Source: a virus
Length of the DNA: 22,458 nucleotides
Virus record (IMG/VR): IMGVR_UViG_3300042691_019019
Coordinates: 1 to 22,458 of that record
Strand: one strand, 5' to 3'
Made by a program: the position numbers and the translations under genes. Of this stretch, positions 4,237 to 16,040 are shown one piece after another. The notes below the pieces were generated by a model. The model was not told the DNA's origin. It did no database searches and saw only the letters and a list, made by a program, of their open reading frames with translations. Every line of letters starts with the position of its first letter. Within the stretch, counting starts at the first letter, position 1.

Positions 4237-5561
4237 ACTTGTAACGCTTTTATGATTGATTGCATTTCTCGACCGTTCACAAGGTATCGCAGTGCGTCTA
4301 AGTGGTCGGCCAGTTGTGTGGTATCCTTGCGATTAGCCTTAATGATTGACCCCTCTGCATCGACCTCGACCGTTCGAAGGTCACGGGCCAAATGTACGCA
4401 CTTCGGATCGATTCGGAAGTCAATGATGTTTCTGATGGCGAAGTTCACGTCATGGCGGCTGTTGATGTGGCGCGGGTTGGGCCGCAGGTCAAGCTGTGAG
4501 GTGGTCAGGTTCAGTCGCTTTTGGATGAGTGAATAGATTGAACGACCGTCTGCCGCAATGAGGTTGCGCGTGTTTCCGTTGTAGTCACCCGTGAGCGTAA
4601 CGAGTGCGAGGTTAGCCATGCCGAACCGTTCAATGATACGTGTGCAGGCTTCATCGATGGAGGCGTTTGGCACCGTCTCTTCATCGAATATGTGAACGTG
4701 CGGCCCGCTGTGGTCAGTCCATACATGAGCGTAGATGAACGCCATCGGATCAAGGTTGAAGTCCATTGATATATGCAGCATCCGCCCGCGTTCGTACTCA
4801 CAAGGCTGAATGTTGCGGTCGGTGAATGAGTGGGCGAATGGTCGCTCAATGTTTGCCCGTGCCGTCCAGTCTCCATATAACAGGCGGGCGCGATCGTAGT
4901 CGTCAAGGAAATTGAGCGTTCGGGTGTAGTTATTTCTGAATGTCTCATCGGGGTTGTCGGCTACCGTGAACAGAACCCGTGCGCGGTGTTCGGGCAGGTC
5001 TATCAGGTTGCCCATCGCGTCCATGACATAGCGCGACTTAATCCAATGGTCGCCTGGGTTGCCCGTTAGCAGTAGTTCGGGTGTGATGCCGTGTTTCGTG
5101 TGGCCGAGGCGGAGGCGCGATAGCAGAATCTCAGCGGCCCTTTGATGCACTTCTGGAGCCTCATCGATGAAAGCATCGGTGTATTCAGTTGACCCGAATC
5201 GGTTGTAGTCGGGGTCGCTGGGCTGATACGCCATGTGCCTGAAGTGTTGCTCAGACCCATTAGCGAAATAGACGATGTGCTCCTGTGCGTTGTAGGTGTA
5301 GTGCTGCCCCGACTGATACCCCATCGACCTAAGTAGGTCAAAGTAGGTCTTCATCGTGGAGTCTCGGAGTGCCGTGTAATCGCGCCTGCCTATGAATCCG
5401 CGTGTCTCTGCGAATGTGGTGCGCCTGTATATCTGCCTAAGACAGCCCAGCCATGACTTTCCGCCACCCGCTGACCCGCCCGCGAAGACCTCAACTATTT
5501 CAGGGCGGTCAAGTAGCCGCCACGCCTTCGCCTGCTTCGGGCTTAGAATCGTTCGGCTCAT
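4233..5561 (-). CDS. terL: Terminase large subunit (packaging ATPase/nuclease)
   Basis: 442 residues. The motor that drives DNA into the prohead and cuts it. The ATPase domain has Walker A GGSAGGGKS at 28-36, Walker B FIDEAPE at 131-137 and a coupling motif TGNPG at 166-170. The RNase H-like nuclease domain has acidic residues in ISMDFNLDP (D267), TGDYNG near 325 and DHLDALRYLV near 420, the expected three-Asp pattern. Length is normal for the family. It overlaps the small subunit by 53 bp and the next gene by 4 nt. Oddly, no portal or capsid gene follows; the next recognisable genes are tail genes. Confidence 0.95.
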   Translation of the reverse strand: MSRTILSPKQAKAWRLLDRPEIVEVFAGGSAGGGKSWLGCLRQIYRRTTFAETRGFIGRRDYTALRDSTMKTYFDLLRSMGYQSGQHYTYNAQEHIVYFANGSEQHFRHMAYQPSDPDYNRFGSTEYTDAFIDEAPEVHQRAAEILLSRLRLGHTKHGITPELLLTGNPGDHWIKSRYVMDAMGNLIDLPEHRARVLFTVADNPDETFRNNYTRTLNFLDDYDRARLLYGDWTARANIERPFAHSFTDRNIQPCEYERGRMLHISMDFNLDPMAFIYAHVWTDHSGPHVHIFDEETVPNASIDEACTRIIERFGMANLALVTLTGDYNGNTRNLIAADGRSIYSLIQKRLNLTTSQLDLRPNPRHINSRHDVNFAIRNIIDFRIDPKCVHLARDLRTVEVDAEGSIIKANRKDTTQLADHLDALRYLVNGREMQSIIKALQV

Positions 5562-5878: not shown

Positions 5879-6916
5879 TTACGGTGTTTTGGAAAGCCAC
5901 TGCAAATATACCTGATGAGCAATCTGAGCGGTCATAACAGGCGGAACACTCATGCCGATTAGGTACTGGTGACTGATTTTTTGAAAGTCATAGTCTATTG
6001 GATAGCTTCCTATTTGTAATAGTTCGTTTTTCGTTAGTCTTTCGGGCTTTTCATAATGGCAGTAGTTTGTTGACTCATTCGCTAAAATAGTCGCGCACAC
6101 GTCTTGTTTTCCTGTTTTGAATAAATACCCAAACGTGCTTCCTTTTGTTGTTTTTGCGCGCCCATGTTTTGCGCTATTCCAGTATTCCATATATGACGGG
6201 GTAATGCTTTCTCTTCTTGTGTTTAACCCCTCGTCAATCTCCCCAAACGGTATTGCCCTTTCATTGAAGTTAAGAGTTAACCAAGGCCACCCCATGTCCC
6301 TACGTTGGCACACAAAGAACACCCGCTCCCGTTTCTGAGGTACGCCCATACTTGCCGCGTTCAATAGGAACAACTGCACCACATACCCCGCTGCCTCAAA
6401 TTCTGCTTTGATCCGTTTTACGTATGCTTTTGCGTTGCCTTGCAGCATACCTTTCACGTTTTCTGCAATTACCACTTTCGGCTGCAATCGCTTTGCAAGT
6501 GCTATGTAGTCAAAAAACAAGTCGTCTAATCTTTGCTTTGCCTGACCTTCTCTGAATACCTTTTCCTTGCCCCAATCCTTTTCCCTATTCCCTGCCATGC
6601 TGAAAGATGAACACGGGGGCGACCCATCCAAAAGGTCAAGGTTGAATAGGTCTGATGGTAATTCAGTGCGCTTTACAAAGTAGCGAATATCCTCAACAAA
6701 AAGGTGTTTCGGGTTGTGATTCGCCTTATAAACATCGGCAACTTGCGGGTCAATTTCAACGCCTCCGAGGTGGTCAAACCCCGCCAGCTTATACCCCATC
6801 GTGGAACCGCCACCACATATAAATGTGCCGAACACTTTTAGCCCATGTCGGGCTATTCCTTTAGCTGGGTATCCATCGGCTAAGTTCCAGCGATATGGAA
6901 ATTTGTGACTGCTCAC
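5879..6916 (-). CDS. DNA (cytosine-5) methyltransferase
   Basis: 345 residues from a GTG at 6916 that overlaps the ParB-like stop (GTGA). It transfers a methyl group from S-adenosylmethionine to C5 of cytosine. Motif I is TFICGGGS at 31-38, the catalytic loop is GSPPCSSFS with Cys102, motif VI is ENV at 152-154, motif VIII is QKRER at 194-198, and motif X is GMSVPP near the C-terminus (Asn of the usual GNSVPP replaced by Met). The next in-frame ATG lies inside motif I, so the GTG start is well supported. No restriction enzyme is adjacent, so an orphan enzyme protecting phage DNA is likely. Confidence 0.92.
   Translation of the reverse strand: MSSHKFPYRWNLADGYPAKGIARHGLKVFGTFICGGGSTMGYKLAGFDHLGGVEIDPQVADVYKANHNPKHLFVEDIRYFVKRTELPSDLFNLDLLDGSPPCSSFSMAGNREKDWGKEKVFREGQAKQRLDDLFFDYIALAKRLQPKVVIAENVKGMLQGNAKAYVKRIKAEFEAAGYVVQLFLLNAASMGVPQKRERVFFVCQRRDMGWPWLTLNFNERAIPFGEIDEGLNTRRESITPSYMEYWNSAKHGRAKTTKGSTFGYLFKTGKQDVCATILANESTNYCHYEKPERLTKNELLQIGSYPIDYDFQKISHQYLIGMSVPPVMTAQIAHQVYLQWLSKTP
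5903..5910 (-). promoter_or_regulatory. Weak candidate promoter for terminase genes
   Basis: TATATTTG matches the TAnnTTTG -7 box and lies 70 nt before ATG 5832, but inside the end of the C5 methyltransferase gene and without a -33 box. A match to six fixed bases is expected several times per strand by chance in this window. Confidence 0.25.
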
Positions 6917-7428
6917 AATTTCAGTAGTTGATAAACAGCTGCTTCGGGGGTCGCGGCAATTTTTGACAGGGCCTCTTTCACCTTCCAATAGTCATCTTCT
7001 GAGTAGTTCAGCTTGATGCACATTTCGGAATCAAGGCCGTCAACATCTATTTCTTCATTTGCATCTGCGAACGTCTGAGGCACATCCACTCCCCACTCGT
7101 CCAACTGCCCCGCGTCCCATTCATTAGCGAGAACATCCCAATCCCATTCACCGCCCGACACGTTGTCTTTAATGACAAACTCCCGCTGTTTATCTTCGGG
7201 CCAGTCCACCCGTTCAATTGGTATTTTCTTCCAGCCAGCCTCAATCATTGCGCGGTATCGCATATTCCCGCCAAGGATCACTCCGTCCATGTTCACCACA
7301 ACGGGGCGGACGTTCGCCATCTCTGGGAAGTCCTTTAGTGACTTGACGAGCTTTGCGAATTTGTCGTCCCGAATTATGCGCGGGTTCGATGGGTTCGGCT
7401 TGATGTCCGATGGCTTAACCTCTTCCAT
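6913..7428 (-). CDS. ParB/Srx-fold nuclease-like protein
   Basis: 171 residues. The N-terminal ParB-like domain has NPSNPR near 12-17, a Pro-Val-Val-Val strand near 42-46, and GGNMRYRAMIEAG near 53-65, the usual G-x-x-R-x-x-A signature. The C-terminal half is acidic and ends YQLLKL. Phage proteins of this fold are often next to or fused with DNA methyltransferases, and here the stop codon overlaps the GTG of a C5 methyltransferase. No helix-turn-helix of chromosomal ParB is obvious, so plasmid-type partition is unlikely; DNA binding or nicking in support of modification is a reasonable guess. Confidence 0.85.
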   Translation of the reverse strand: MEEVKPSDIKPNPSNPRIIRDDKFAKLVKSLKDFPEMANVRPVVVNMDGVILGGNMRYRAMIEAGWKKIPIERVDWPEDKQREFVIKDNVSGGEWDWDVLANEWDAGQLDEWGVDVPQTFADANEEIDVDGLDSEMCIKLNYSEDDYWKVKEALSKIAATPEAAVYQLLKL

Positions 7429-9316: not shown

Positions 9317-9472
9317 TCAGTCGGTTTCTTCGTTGGTTGCGTATGTGAAGTTGAATTTTCCGTTGCTCTTGTAGCCGCGCATGAGTTGTTTCGCGACACG
9401 TCTCATCGGTATTGAGTCGGCTAACATCTTAGCCCTTTCGTATGTGGCCGCTGTTCGGTATGGTCGTGTCAT
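9317..9472 (-). CDS. Hypothetical basic protein, 51 aa
   Basis: ATG at 9472 overlaps the stop of the DnaA-like gene by 4 nt and TGA is at 9317-9319, 3 nt before the next start. The protein is rich in Arg/Lys/Met (MTRPYRTAATYERAKM...; PMRRVAKQLMRGYK) and probably a short helical nucleic-acid-binding or adaptor peptide. The tight fit between two coupled genes is the strongest evidence. Its coupling to the DnaA-like protein suggests they act together, an inference only. Confidence 0.65.
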   Translation of the reverse strand: MTRPYRTAATYERAKMLADSIPMRRVAKQLMRGYKSNGKFNFTYATNEETD

Positions 9473-9843
9473 TGCTCAATGATTGAGGTGTAAATGTCGA
9501 ACATCAGATTGACGAACCCGTCCTCGGTGTCGAGGTGGTCGGTGACGGCCTTTCGCGCATAGATGACGGTTGTGTGATCGCGGTCGAATCTACGCCCAAT
9601 TTCTGTGAGGTTAAGCGGTGTCAGGCTGAACATTAGGGCCTGAGCTATCTGCCTGGCCGTTACGTCACACGACCTGCGGGACTCCGACTTCATGTCTTTC
9701 TCGGTTATCATGGTGTGATGCGACACGGCCCACAATATCCTCTCTTCCATCGTGACGGGGATCGATCCATAGACTTGTTCGGGTCGGTAAATCACTGGCC
9801 CTTCGTATCGATAGGTTCTTGCGGTGTTCGGTGTAGGTGGCAT
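9469..9843 (-). CDS. Stand-alone DnaA domain IV-like DNA-binding protein
   Basis: 124 residues. Residues about 58-102 read like the C-terminal DNA-binding domain of DnaA: CDVTARQIAQAL (basic-loop helix), LTEIGRRFDRD, then HTTVIYARKAV, a near-complete match to the DnaA signature IGxxFxxRDHTTVxxA. No AAA+ domain or Walker motifs are present. Residues 1-30 are Pro/Tyr-rich and unassigned. In DnaA this helix-turn-helix reads the 9-mer TTATCCACA. Possible roles are recognising the phage origin or competing with host DnaA. ATG 9843 is used; ATG at codon 32 would also retain the whole domain. Confidence 0.85.
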   Translation of the reverse strand: MPPTPNTARTYRYEGPVIYRPEQVYGSIPVTMEERILWAVSHHTMITEKDMKSESRRSCDVTARQIAQALMFSLTPLNLTEIGRRFDRDHTTVIYARKAVTDHLDTEDGFVNLMFDIYTSIIEQ

Positions 9844-12101: not shown

Positions 12102-12358
12102 GGCATCTGATCTATCAATCGTTGTAGCTTGCGTTCGGCCACGACCGCGCGGCCCTGTTGTGTGCTGGCCTCCAGTTCGGCTTTCGCCCACTTTCTGCGA
12201 AGGTCTGCCGTCTGGTGTCTCAGTTGCTCTATTCGCAGCGCGGCAGTTAGCATGACGTAGGCCATGTCATGCGCCCGCTCATCCTTGCCCGACTCACTCA
12301 GGAATCGGCTGAATTGCCTCAACAGGCTCAACGTCTCAAAGTCTTGGATTTCGTCCAT
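12098..12358 (-). CDS. Helical coiled-coil protein, 86 aa
   Basis: Almost entirely helical: MDEIQDFETLSLLRQFSRF, then a long Arg/Glu/Ala/Gln-rich helix from about residue 35 (RIEQLRHQTADLRRKWAKAE) to the end. ATG shares one nucleotide with the helicase stop (TGATG), so the two are tightly coupled. A helicase accessory or replisome-bridging role is possible but only inferred from this coupling. Confidence 0.75.
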   Translation of the reverse strand: MDEIQDFETLSLLRQFSRFLSESGKDERAHDMAYVMLTAALRIEQLRHQTADLRRKWAKAELEASTQQGRAVVAERKLQRLIDQMP

Positions 12359-13434
12359 CAGAAAGGCGGATTATCGTTTTGTTCCTGTGAGTGCGGCAAA
12401 TTCCGACCGCTTGCATAGCCGTACATCTCGCGGGCCTGATCGGTCACAACCTCTTTAAGTGCCGCTAAGTGCGCCCGTCCTTCGCCCGCAAAGAACAGCT
12501 TACCATCGAGGTTTTCGTAATACCTGAATCGCGACCATTCCCAAAACATTGACTTCTTGCCGAGACACGCAACGCCTTTTGGCTTGGCCTTATGCACGGC
12601 AATAATAACCTCGTTGTTCGCGTATGGTATGCCAGTATCGGGGTTGAGCATGTCAGCGGGCGGCCTCCAAAGTGTGAGCATCAGAAACCCCCTGCGGTAC
12701 CAGTTCTGACCCATTGCCCATTCCGTAGGCTCAGGCATCGGAATGAACCGCCTGCCGCTTTCTTTGTCCTTTTCGGCAGGTATCTGCGCAATGTGATTCA
12801 CAAGGAACCCCGCGCGATTATGCGACTTGCACTCCCTTCGCCAATTCTTAAGCTCATCTTCAAGCCATAGCTCTACCCTGTTCCCGTACGGCTTTAGGTC
12901 TTTCACGAAGTCATTGAACGGGTCGAAGGCCATCGTGTCAAACGAAAAGCCAAGCTCTTTTTCCCACGCTGTCACCTCCTTGCAGAATTGCGCGGGCGTG
13001 TAGTCTGTTTCGTCCGATAGCACGTAAAAATGTTGACTGACCCAATACCTACCCTGTTCGGCCTCTGATTCGCTCATCGCGTAGCCGTTCAACACGCCTC
13101 GTTGCTTATACCTTCGATAGGGCTTGCCGATGTACTTTTCTACCAGTTGAATGTAGATTTCTGCTGCATTGCCCTCTTCGCCTGAATAGATACAATGCCG
13201 CCACTTGCTGAACGTGGACAGGTTGATGAGCATCTCGAACAACCATTCCGATTTGCCCGCGTGAGGCATGGCCGCGATGTACACGGGAAACCCCTTGCGG
13301 ATTGATATGAACGGCTTACCCAATGTGCCGCCATGTTCGTCCAAACTCTCAAACCCGATGTACTCACCGCGCTGAACGTCCGAGTCGCGAATCTGCTGTA
13401 ATTCGCTCACGCATTGGTCAAGTGTGCGCCTCAT
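12358..13434 (-). CDS. DnaB-like replicative helicase (RecA-fold C-terminal domain)
   Basis: 358 residues. Walker A is AMPHAGKS at 55-62, followed by SGEE near 84-87 (motif H1a-like), MAFDPFNDF (Walker B region) near 168, VNHIAQIP near 213 and a later basic segment around WYRRGFLMLTLWRP. This is the RecA-like motor of DnaB/Twinkle-family helicases without the usual N-terminal primase-binding domain. It unwinds DNA at the phage fork. Its ATG overlaps the stop of the putative initiator by 4 nt, the order seen for initiator-helicase pairs in phages such as P22. RepA-type RecA-fold ATPases are the alternative. Confidence 0.85.
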   Translation of the reverse strand: MRRTLDQCVSELQQIRDSDVQRGEYIGFESLDEHGGTLGKPFISIRKGFPVYIAAMPHAGKSEWLFEMLINLSTFSKWRHCIYSGEEGNAAEIYIQLVEKYIGKPYRRYKQRGVLNGYAMSESEAEQGRYWVSQHFYVLSDETDYTPAQFCKEVTAWEKELGFSFDTMAFDPFNDFVKDLKPYGNRVELWLEDELKNWRRECKSHNRAGFLVNHIAQIPAEKDKESGRRFIPMPEPTEWAMGQNWYRRGFLMLTLWRPPADMLNPDTGIPYANNEVIIAVHKAKPKGVACLGKKSMFWEWSRFRYYENLDGKLFFAGEGRAHLAALKEVVTDQAREMYGYASGRNLPHSQEQNDNPPF

Positions 13435-14153
13435 GCTGTCGGGTTGTTAGGCTCATCAGTCGGTGCGCCTGGCAGGTGCATGAACTGAGGCATGTTCTTA
13501 GGCGTGACCTCTGCGAACCGTTCGGGTGTAAGCCATTCAAGTCTGCCCGATACCATCCAATTTTTGAACACCTCTTTGATGTGCGGCACAAGGTATTTGC
13601 GGGTGCGGAATTTGATTCCAAGCTCCTTTGCCTGTTCCTCGCATAGTTTCGATGTGGGCGTGTTCTCAGATAGCGACTCAAAGAACTGATCGGCTGTGAC
13701 GCTTGAGAATGAGTAATAGAGGATGTTCTTTCTGCGAGGTGTGCCCGTGTTAGGTTCGAGGTTGATGGTAAGGGGTCGGGGTTCTTGATAATGTGAATGT
13801 TCATTTACATTACCATTCACATTATCATTTACATTAGGGGTTTTGATGGGGTTTTGATGGGGTTTGCTTGGGGTTACGGTGGGGTTTTCTTGGGGTTTTC
13901 TTGGGGTTTTGGGTCGGCCTCCAAGATGGCCGAAACTACCACCCTTCGCGCCTTGTGCCCGTTTCTTTTTGTTCGCATCGAACTGAGGCCGCATGAACTG
14001 CCACAGGGTAGAATGTATGCCCGTCAATTCAGGCTCCTTGTCGTCAAGGCAGTAGTCGGCTATCGCGTCAATGAGCTTAAGCCGATCCGCGTCTGGTAGG
14101 TCTTTGAGTCCGCTCAAAAAAGAGCGGTACATCACAAAGCTATCTTGTGCCAT
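13431..14153 (-). CDS. Putative replication initiator/helicase loader (DUF6291-like)
   Basis: 240 residues. The N-terminal domain (about 1-75: SFVMYRSFLSGLKDLPDADR..., WQFMRPQFDANKKK, GGRPK) matches the N-terminal pattern common to phage replication proteins next to DnaB-like helicases. Residues about 80-125 are a low-complexity linker of Pro/Lys/Asn/Thr (KTPRKPQENPTVTPSKP) that then becomes Asn/Val-rich. The C-terminal part (about 145-220) is a separate helical domain with Trp residues. The linker is encoded by the candidate origin repeats, as in lambda gene O. Function is inferred from operon position and this layout. Confidence 0.7.
   Translation of the reverse strand: MAQDSFVMYRSFLSGLKDLPDADRLKLIDAIADYCLDDKEPELTGIHSTLWQFMRPQFDANKKKRAQGAKGGSFGHLGGRPKTPRKPQENPTVTPSKPHQNPIKTPNVNDNVNGNVNEHSHYQEPRPLTINLEPNTGTPRRKNILYYSFSSVTADQFFESLSENTPTSKLCEEQAKELGIKFRTRKYLVPHIKEVFKNWMVSGRLEWLTPERFAEVTPKNMPQFMHLPGAPTDEPNNPTA
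13790..13914. other. Candidate phage replication origin inside the initiator gene
   Basis: Three blocks abut. A perfect 10-bp inverted repeat, AATGTGAATG (13790-13799) and CATTCACATT (13814-13823). Three AT-rich 12-mers of type CATTTACATTAC at 13802, 13814 and 13826. Seven 11-mers beginning GGGG at 13837, 13848, 13859, 13870, 13881, 13892 and 13903, all exactly 11 bp apart (types GGGGTTTTGAT, GGGGTTTTCTT). Iterons beside an AT-rich repeat block in a putative initiator gene resemble lambda ori, and three AT-rich 12-mers resemble the oriC unwinding element. The G-runs could also form G-quadruplexes on the plus strand. Confidence 0.6.
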
Positions 14154-14311: not shown

Positions 14312-14590
14312 TCAGTTGCCGCGCATCGTCCTCATCCTGAAATGACACGTCTCACCGTGCAGGGTCGCGTAGTATCCACGCGGTTTGGTGTCAATAGGTT
14401 TGATGGTGCGCTTTCCCTTGTGCTGCCCACGGTACGCGCGGATCAGTTCCCTTGTCGCGCGTTCGCTTGTGAACGTCTCAGGATGTTCATTGAACAGGTG
14501 CCGCGCGAGGGTGCATGTCGGCCATGTGTTGAAGTCGGGGTCTGCAAGGTAGCGGCAGACGGTGTGGCCTTTGGGGGTGCGGTGTGCCAT
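14312..14590 (-). CDS. Small DNA-binding-like protein (free-standing N-terminal domain)
   Basis: 92 residues. The stretch TWPTCTLARHLFNEHPETF, continuing to REL and IRAYRGQHKGKR, resembles the helical domain found at the N-terminus of larger Bacteroidota phage proteins (before phosphoesterase or nuclease domains), where a Leu-Ala-Arg helix and an Ile-Arg-x-Tyr-Arg-Gly motif recur. Here it stands alone. A C-terminal basic segment ends with MRTMRGN. Likely nucleic-acid binding, by composition. Its start shares one base with the stop of the methyltransferase upstream. Confidence 0.65.
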   Translation of the reverse strand: MAHRTPKGHTVCRYLADPDFNTWPTCTLARHLFNEHPETFTSERATRELIRAYRGQHKGKRTIKPIDTKPRGYYATLHGETCHFRMRTMRGN

Positions 14591-15387
14591 TAGAATAACG
14601 TTGGGTGTATTTTCTCAATCTTCGACTTCGCATACCCAAGTTCAGATAGTTCCTTAATCATTCGGGCATTATCCTCGATCCACTTTGAAGCAGCAGCATG
14701 AAAGTCCTTTTTGATTTCAAACCCATAAGCCTTTCTCTTTAGGTTCTGCGCGGCTATTAGTGTTGACCCGCTGCCAGCGCATGGATCAATCACAACGTCA
14801 CCCTCGTCTGTAAATATGCGGATCAGATTCTCAAGCAGTTCAACTGGTTTTTGTGTCGGGTGCAATTTCTCGTTTACGGTGTCGCGCGGCCAGTCCATGC
14901 AGTTGAATATCATTTTGCCGTTATTATTGAATTTCGGGAGTTTGTCGCGATAAAAAAGCACGGCATATTCGCAGTTGCCTACCACTTTCATATTTGCCTT
15001 AAGCACCTGTGCGCTGAAATTCTTTCTAAAAACGAGGTTGATATATCCAGTCAGGCCGTATTTTTTCGCAAGCTCTATCAAATAAAACTGCTGCTCAAAT
15101 TCACAGAATACAATCATGCACGGGGACTGACCTTTTTCCTTCGGTTCCTTTTTAAGCATTGTTGAGCAAAAGTGCATGAACTCTGCTGGTCGAAAGTCCT
15201 TGTCGGTGTCGAAAAACTCCTTGCCAGCAAGTTCGCTTTCACCATTCTTATTGTCGCCATCTTTATACCATGATGGGTTCGATGCGTATGCGTTGTTGCC
15301 TAAATTATATGGTATGTCTGCAATGATGAGTTGCGCCTTTGGTATCTGATACCCTTTGAAGTTTTGGAAGTGATCTCTGTATAGCAT
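14590..15387 (-). CDS. DNA amino-methyltransferase with DIPY motif
   Basis: 265 residues. The catalytic motif IIADIPYNLG (Asp24-Tyr27) is a DIPY variant of DPPY, and the SAM-binding region VVIDPCAGSGSTLIAA is at the C-terminal side, so this is a beta-class N6-adenine/N4-cytosine methyltransferase (HPTQKPVELLENLI between them is typical). The methyl acceptor sequence cannot be read. ATG overlaps the previous stop by one base (TAATG), so it is translated with the other methyltransferase. No restriction endonuclease is nearby; an anti-restriction role is likely. Confidence 0.88.
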   Translation of the reverse strand: MLYRDHFQNFKGYQIPKAQLIIADIPYNLGNNAYASNPSWYKDGDNKNGESELAGKEFFDTDKDFRPAEFMHFCSTMLKKEPKEKGQSPCMIVFCEFEQQFYLIELAKKYGLTGYINLVFRKNFSAQVLKANMKVVGNCEYAVLFYRDKLPKFNNNGKMIFNCMDWPRDTVNEKLHPTQKPVELLENLIRIFTDEGDVVIDPCAGSGSTLIAAQNLKRKAYGFEIKKDFHAAASKWIEDNARMIKELSELGYAKSKIEKIHPTLF

Positions 15388-16040
15388 TAGAACAGCTTGA
15401 GTTGTGATTTGTATTCTGCGTACCGTTTCTCCTGTGCCGCGTAGTAGTCGGGGTCGAGTTCGTATCCGTAGAAGTCAATGTTACCCGCCCTGTCTGCTGC
15501 TATCCGATTTGACCCGCTACCAAGATGCGAGTCGATGACCCTTCCGCCATCTGGCAGGTAGTTCTTGTATATCCAGTCGTACAAAGCAATTGGTTTTTGC
15601 GTTGGATGAATATTGATTCCAGACCGTTCAGCGCCTTTAAGTTTCGGAGCAAACCCGCTTTCGTTACCTCTAGCATAACGAAAAACTCTAGCACTTGAAC
15701 TAAAAGAACACCAAGCCAATTCACAATCCGCTTGGTCAATTCTTTGAACTTTATCCCATATCAAAAAACAACGGCTTGGAGGAAGTTCAAAATAATTTCC
15801 ACCCCAAATGATTTGATTTTTTGATACTCTGAATAGTTCAATAAAGTATTCAATATTTGGAATTGCATTATCCCATTGGCTTGCGTTTCTTTCTTTCCAT
15901 CCATCAGATTTCTTCTTTTTACCTACAAGTTCTGAATATCCAATCCCATAAGGCGGATCGACAACGGCCAAATCAAAGTACTTATCGGGAAATTCCCGCA
16001 TCGCAGCCATGCAGTCACGGTTGTAAACAATCGATGTCAT
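15387..16040 (-). CDS. DNA amino-methyltransferase with DPPY motif
   Basis: 217 residues. The catalytic motif AVVDPPYGIGY has Asp28-Pro-Pro-Tyr31; HPTQKPIALYDWI near 145 precedes the SAM-binding motif VIDSHLGSGSNRIAA (Asp-Ser-His where most have Asp-Pro-Phe). Beta-class N6A/N4C methyltransferase, compact but complete. It sits between a 54-aa coupled gene and the second methyltransferase. The two share order and motifs but little sequence, so they probably have different target sites rather than being a recent duplication. Confidence 0.9.
   Translation of the reverse strand: MTSIVYNRDCMAAMREFPDKYFDLAVVDPPYGIGYSELVGKKKKSDGWKERNASQWDNAIPNIEYFIELFRVSKNQIIWGGNYFELPPSRCFLIWDKVQRIDQADCELAWCSFSSSARVFRYARGNESGFAPKLKGAERSGINIHPTQKPIALYDWIYKNYLPDGGRVIDSHLGSGSNRIAADRAGNIDFYGYELDPDYYAAQEKRYAEYKSQLKLF

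Follow-up and report, generated by a model that had tools for sequence, protein, structure and literature searches.

The window analysed here, a whole viral record of 22,458 bp, very probably carries a tailed-phage replication origin of the iteron type placed inside its own initiator gene, where, judged from sequence comparison, the initiator would bind and replication would start. We favour this reading because the 11-bp phase of the repeats is kept at the DNA level, the same plan is shared with distant relatives, helicase, loader or primase genes adjoin, and a Gly-spaced tail of the protein co-varies with the iterons; an origin of this kind had been proposed in the first-pass annotation, and these four lines of evidence support it. 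In the proposed mechanism DUF6291 domains would bind next to one another along the array, one 11-bp iteron for each turn of the DNA, the bound array would strain and open the adjoining AT-rich stretch, and the C-terminal part, joined through a linker that the array itself would encode, would recruit or load the DnaB-like helicase made from the next gene. Elements of this mechanism are supported computationally by selection on the array and on AT content, the conserved order of parts, the helicase neighbourhood and the exchange of C-terminal parts. The features are as follows:

12358..13434, minus strand: DnaB-like (RecA-fold) helicase gene (PHROG DNA primase/helicase, E = 4e-6)
13431..14153, minus strand: initiator gene, a 240-aa open reading frame for a DUF6291 protein, containing the candidate origin
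13434..13736, minus strand: C-terminal part (residues about 140-240), proposed to recruit the helicase; differs from the C-termini of other DUF6291 initiators
13772..13781, minus strand: two further CCCC runs (GGGG at 13772 and 13778), possible extra half-sites across the AT-rich stretch
13786..13827: inverted repeat with arms at 13786-13804 and 13809-13827 (19 nt each, 17/19 complementary, 14-bp perfect core)
13800..13836, minus strand: AT-rich 12-mers encoding NVNDNVNGNVNE with AT-biased codon choice, the proposed unwinding element
13837..13913, minus strand: seven 11-bp iterons, coding-strand consensus AAAACCCCAAG (plus strand GGGGTTTTcTT)
13908..14141, minus strand: DUF6291 domain, proposed to bind the iterons (Pfam match; AF2 core of three helices)
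13911..13952, minus strand: Gly-ladder tail GAKGGSFGHLGGRP, residues 68-81; G68-G71-G75-G78 make 3 steps, which predicts C4

Initiator gene, iteron array and AT-rich stretch

The recognisable genes of the window all lie on the minus strand, and the stop of the initiator gene overlaps the start of the helicase gene by 4 nt. The only Pfam family matched by the initiator protein is DUF6291 (PF19808; E = 7.7e-16 over residues 5-82; 58.5 bits against a curated cut-off of 27.2), a family of unknown function, and the PHROG families that it matches are likewise without known function. The earlier placement of this gene before a DnaB-like helicase gene is in keeping with the PHROG match listed above and with a profile built from six helicase relatives, as that profile matched DnaB 4nmn (E = 0.001); the window helicase protein searched alone gave no Pfam DnaB_C match. 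The C-terminal part of the initiator had no trustworthy Pfam match, nor did it match the Phg_2220_C profile, which is found in the Riemerella and Flavobacterium phage relatives.

AF2 models, which contain no DNA and were computed from alignments that left out rows from annotated records, gave a confident three-helix core (residues 1-60, pLDDT about 80-92), with helix 3 running into the Gly tail as far as residue 77 in the window protein and residue 86 in relative L281 (pLDDT there about 50-60). The linker encoded by the array (residues 83-155) was modelled as disordered, with pLDDT under 50, in agreement with the suggestion that the repeats encode a linker as in lambda O/ori. Profile and fold searches of the PDB returned no match for DUF6291; among viral structure models the good matches were mostly DUF6291 proteins, and a small number carry the names replisome organizer or DnaD.

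The GGGG runs of the array start at 13837, 13848, 13859, 13870, 13881, 13892 and 13903, exactly 11 bp apart and within the 240-aa frame, just as first described; TRF reports a period of 11 with 6.8 copies and 81% matches. For a null model, codons were swapped for synonyms at genome codon usage with the protein held constant. Lag-11 identity in the array was 52, this null giving 32.9 +/- 3.8, and there were 7 phased CCCC runs where the null averaged 1.6 (p about 1e-5). The 11-bp period exceeds the synonymous expectation and is therefore a property of the DNA: the phase of the array is under selection at the DNA level, as had been argued from its length not being a multiple of three. A repeat kept at the peptide level was rejected on this null together with the equal use of the three frames.

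Three 12-mers occupy 13801-13836 and abut the array, confirming the original description. They are in frame (12 bp being four codons). Their periodicity lies within the expectation from the peptide (p = 0.16), but their composition goes beyond it: AT content is 28/36 against 21.9 expected under the synonymous null (p = 0.0005), and all six Asn codons are AAT although the genome prefers AAC. The AT-richness of the 12-mers is thus under DNA-level selection. The inverted repeat over the 12-mers is present as reported; its size had been given as a 10-bp perfect repeat, and the 19-nt arms and 14-bp perfect core listed above replace that figure.

Loss of the repeats from close relatives with an intact protein had been named as grounds for rejecting the origin; three relatives of 98% identity (L001-L003) all retain the array, and the two extra CCCC runs are conserved in them as well. 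Across the four close relatives compared, the 52 nt of the AT-rich and inverted-repeat stretch, the inverted repeat included, are without change, the array has only four changes, located in spacers or at the array edge, and third codon positions vary less in the array and AT stretch (3/43) than outside (46/197; p = 0.02). Relative to the window array, two iteron spacers of L003 (3076-3795) have changed alike (AAGAAA to AAGCAA), which suggests homogenisation within the array.

Elsewhere in the window, Rfam and tRNA scans found nothing. The cumulative GC skew check that had been proposed was run on the 22-kb fragment; the profile changes sign several times and is uninformative, at this length, on a switch at the origin site. 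DnaA boxes were considered and rejected: a single TTWTNCACA match was found, below chance expectation, and boxes are not enriched in the window. A small phage protein encoded at 9469-9843 (minus strand) is made up largely of the C-terminal domain by which DnaA binds its boxes (PF08299, E = 1.2e-17). Two adjacent N6/N4-type DNA methylase genes lie upstream of the initiator (14590-16040, minus strand), and a C5 cytosine methylase gene (5879-6988) is overlapped by a gene for a ParB N-terminal domain protein (6913-7428, minus strand).

Plan and gene neighbourhood across the DUF6291 family

We surveyed about 200 dereplicated DUF6291 genes from viral contigs, bacterial genomes and a small number of records from phages and plasmids. 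Most share one plan, consisting of the DUF6291 domain, an array of about 11 bp, an AT-rich stretch coding for NVND and a variable C-terminal part, with the array in mid-gene, well downstream of the gene start. In a training set of 67 dereplicated genes, arrays exceeding the synonymous null were found in most that possess an NVND-type linker, with a best lag usually of 11 or 22. Iteron cores vary by lineage (ACCCC, AACC[AT], AGCAA, ACAACC, ACCCA) within a constant layout. In the 99 genes that combine an array with a Gly tail, the three codon positions serve as C-run starts 173, 179 and 165 times, and 72 of the 99 use all three frames; the distance from one run to the next is mostly 11 bp for C2 and C4, and 12 or 24 bp for C6. 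Asn is encoded by AAT in 95% of cases in the AT-rich stretch versus 59% in surrounding genes, the value being higher in 120 of 123 relatives.

The gene that follows was compared at 120 array-bearing loci. It matched DnaB_C at 31, the DnaB N-domain at 21, IstB/DnaC-like proteins at 7, an SPP1 G39P-type loader at 5, Toprim at 5 and a divergent DnaB at 4 (these counts overlap), and many of the proteins had no helicase-type Pfam match. In some phage and plasmid records dnaB and primase/helicase genes are annotated beside DUF6291 genes.

In Riemerella phage GRNRAP2 the DUF6291 gene is about 35% identical and carries 11-bp repeats of the AACC type, with AATGTAAATGAT 12-mers after them; it precedes the related helicase gene, and its C-terminus is Phg_2220_C. 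The annotated start of this gene (L007 5001-5723) falls at locus position 5094, inside the DUF6291 domain, and homology puts the start at 5001. In phages PT33 and FCL-2 this C-terminal family and helicase accompany N-termini and repeats of other kinds, so that the N-domain looks like a module exchanged together with its own repeats; by sequence comparison, C-terminal parts are also exchanged between DUF6291 relatives.

A subgroup with a YEQEVE-type C-terminus has no in-gene array, and no convincing array was found in the sequence flanking these genes out to about 3 kb each way. Array-less YEQEVE-like genes are L019, L020, L023, L033, L049, L065, L068, L078, L088-L090, L094 and L096, several of which still have a long Gly tail. 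In Clostridia genomes some proteins (L124-L127, L429, L432 and others) have two DUF6291-like matches in one frame. One Bacteroidales genome (G1641; L445, L453-L463) has twelve DUF6291 matches, and the dereplicated genes examined from it (L455, L459, L461) have no array. A literature search found no paper naming DUF6291, and the papers containing KGGRP or GGRPK, judged by title, do not concern phage initiators.

Gly-spaced tail, iteron C-runs and alternative readings

In many DUF6291 proteins the tail after the core ends in GGRP. When Gly residues are counted leftward from GG at intervals of 3 or 4 positions, the length of the iteron C-run equals the number of Gly steps plus one, from 1 step and C2 through C3 and C4 (2 and 3 steps) to C5 for 4 and C6 for 5. 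The window conforms, with 3 steps and C4 iterons. Among the 99 genes, 3 steps go with C4 in 24/24, a standard single step with C2 in 53/54, 2 steps with C3 in 1/1, 4 steps with C5 in 2/3 and 5 steps with C6 in 2/2. The deviants are L144 and L326, the latter being the 4-step exception, with CCCnC-like units. Gly steps correlate with C-run length at r = 0.94 (partial correlation 0.95); GC content was rejected as the cause of the link, its correlation with C-run length being 0.01. The rule does not cover every gene. One recognisable class departs from it, that of helix-extended tails (R-x-N-G type), in which a longer helix (ERN/KQR-x-NG) precedes NG: with a single step, 7 such genes have C3 and 7 have C2, and L407, L422, L427 and L437 have C3.

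An earlier, cruder class, in which a long tail means CCCC, came out of inspection of the training set and was then checked against two further sets. The long tail accompanied every CCCC array of set 2 (7/7), and all 13 of set 3 had a seven-residue insert, of which the original tail pattern missed four variants. The step rule was formulated after set 3 and tested afterwards on sets 4 and 5, in which the standard GGR tails fit in 8/8 cases (L400, L413, L418, L423, L424, L426, L440, L444); L386, with GGAP, also fits a rule that was widened to include it. On a tree of the core with the tail excluded, built from few columns and with many unresolved forks, the C4/3-step state changes at least 7 times on well-supported branches. 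Between sister genes, tail and iteron change jointly (L027/L330, L067/L076, L025/L271), and L312 (C4) neighbours L281 and L306 (C6). In palindromic sites (CC..GG, CCC..GGG, CCCC..GGGG and CCCCC..GGGGG) the arms are mostly equal and of the predicted length, and the different versions encode quite different peptides.

The Gly-spaced tail thus predicts iteron C-run length across the family, as a correlation. The simplest reading would make the tail a specificity element, an extension of helix 3 in which each Gly-spaced turn corresponds to about one C:G pair. Whether the helix is modular in the strict sense, with a Gly every 3-4 residues for one C:G pair and a seven-residue unit such as GAEHGKK adding two C's, we rate as an even question. 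A lesser but real possibility is that tail and iteron co-vary through cassette exchange or shared ancestry, or that the tail sets spacing or oligomerisation, with no direct reading of the C-run. The tail adjoins the array, so one exchange would move both; Gly every 3-4 residues would also suit helix packing, and the AF2 models are of the protein alone. Against this, cassette exchange by itself fails to account for a numeric series from 1-5 steps to C2-C6, or for its recurrence on many branches, and the iterons stay near 11 bp apart while the C-run changes.

The in-gene origin itself has to be weighed against three other uses of the repeats. In-gene repeats can be regulatory, and the array might be an operator through which the protein controls its own operon or copy number while replication starts elsewhere; we consider this unlikely, given the AT-rich stretch and its AT-biased codons beyond the array, the adjoining helicase, loader or primase gene, and the position of the array in mid-gene, well downstream of the gene start. 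The repeats do code for a linker, one that AF2 models as disordered, yet the idea that the repeats exist for the protein, as a flexible linker rich in Pro, Lys and Asn, is very improbable in view of the synonymous null, the equal use of three frames and the differing peptides of the palindromic versions. Equally improbable is a telomere-like role in initiation for stacked G-quadruplexes formed by the G-rich strand. The first-pass annotation had likened the units to telomere repeats on the strength of seven GGGG runs on one strand in the window, but runs of at least three G are not conserved across the family: many relatives with the same layout have C/G runs of 1-2, too short for standard quadruplexes. 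An iteron origin within the initiator gene remains the preferred reading.

Relation to known replication systems

If correct, this reading would assign a function to DUF6291, a phage family of unknown function, would make the origins of many uncultured phages and prophages locatable from sequence, and offers a numeric prediction, the iteron C-run length from the protein tail. Should the tail really read the C-run, it would be a new kind of modular DNA recognition, a countable protein-DNA code, in a domain for which no solved fold is known.

The locus has the components of an in-gene iteron origin, namely DNA-level repeats between domains, an AT-rich element and an adjacent gene for a replication partner. 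Pfam, PDB profile and PDB fold searches found no homology of the proposed DNA-binding domain to RepA_N or lambda O; by analogy, the two are the closest mechanisms, in the sense that the window initiator may work like lambda O or pSK41 Rep without belonging to either group.

Phage initiators with their own helicase or loader are familiar from SPP1 (gp38-gp39-gp40) and P22 (gp18-gp12). G39P-type loaders adjoin some DUF6291 genes, as in the SPP1 module; no sequence family common to the SPP1 or P22 initiators and the DUF6291 initiators was shown. In lambda the gene after O encodes the loader P, whereas in the window the next gene is a helicase, and the searches run found the window initiator unrelated to lambda O. 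In lambda and its Stx-phage relatives the iterons lie in the middle of the initiator gene and are followed by an AT-rich tract, and recoding them without a change of protein has served as a test (PMC7466680). Lambda has 4 iterons and the Stx phages 6; the window has 7 of 11 bp.

In pSK41 Rep, a RepA_N protein of staphylococcal plasmids, the N-terminal domain binds Rep boxes in the centre of the rep gene, the origin DNA encodes the linker and the C-terminal domain contacts DnaG; in pPR9 the N-domain and origin have jointly been exchanged for phage-like sequence (PMC5703833). The window resembles pSK41 Rep in having repeats within the gene that encode the linker between a proposed DNA-binding domain and a C-terminal part. 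It differs in that RepA_N is a winged-helix domain, whereas DUF6291 is modelled as three helices with no PDB match, and in its phage context, its helicase gene next door and an 11-bp array whose C-run follows the Gly tail.
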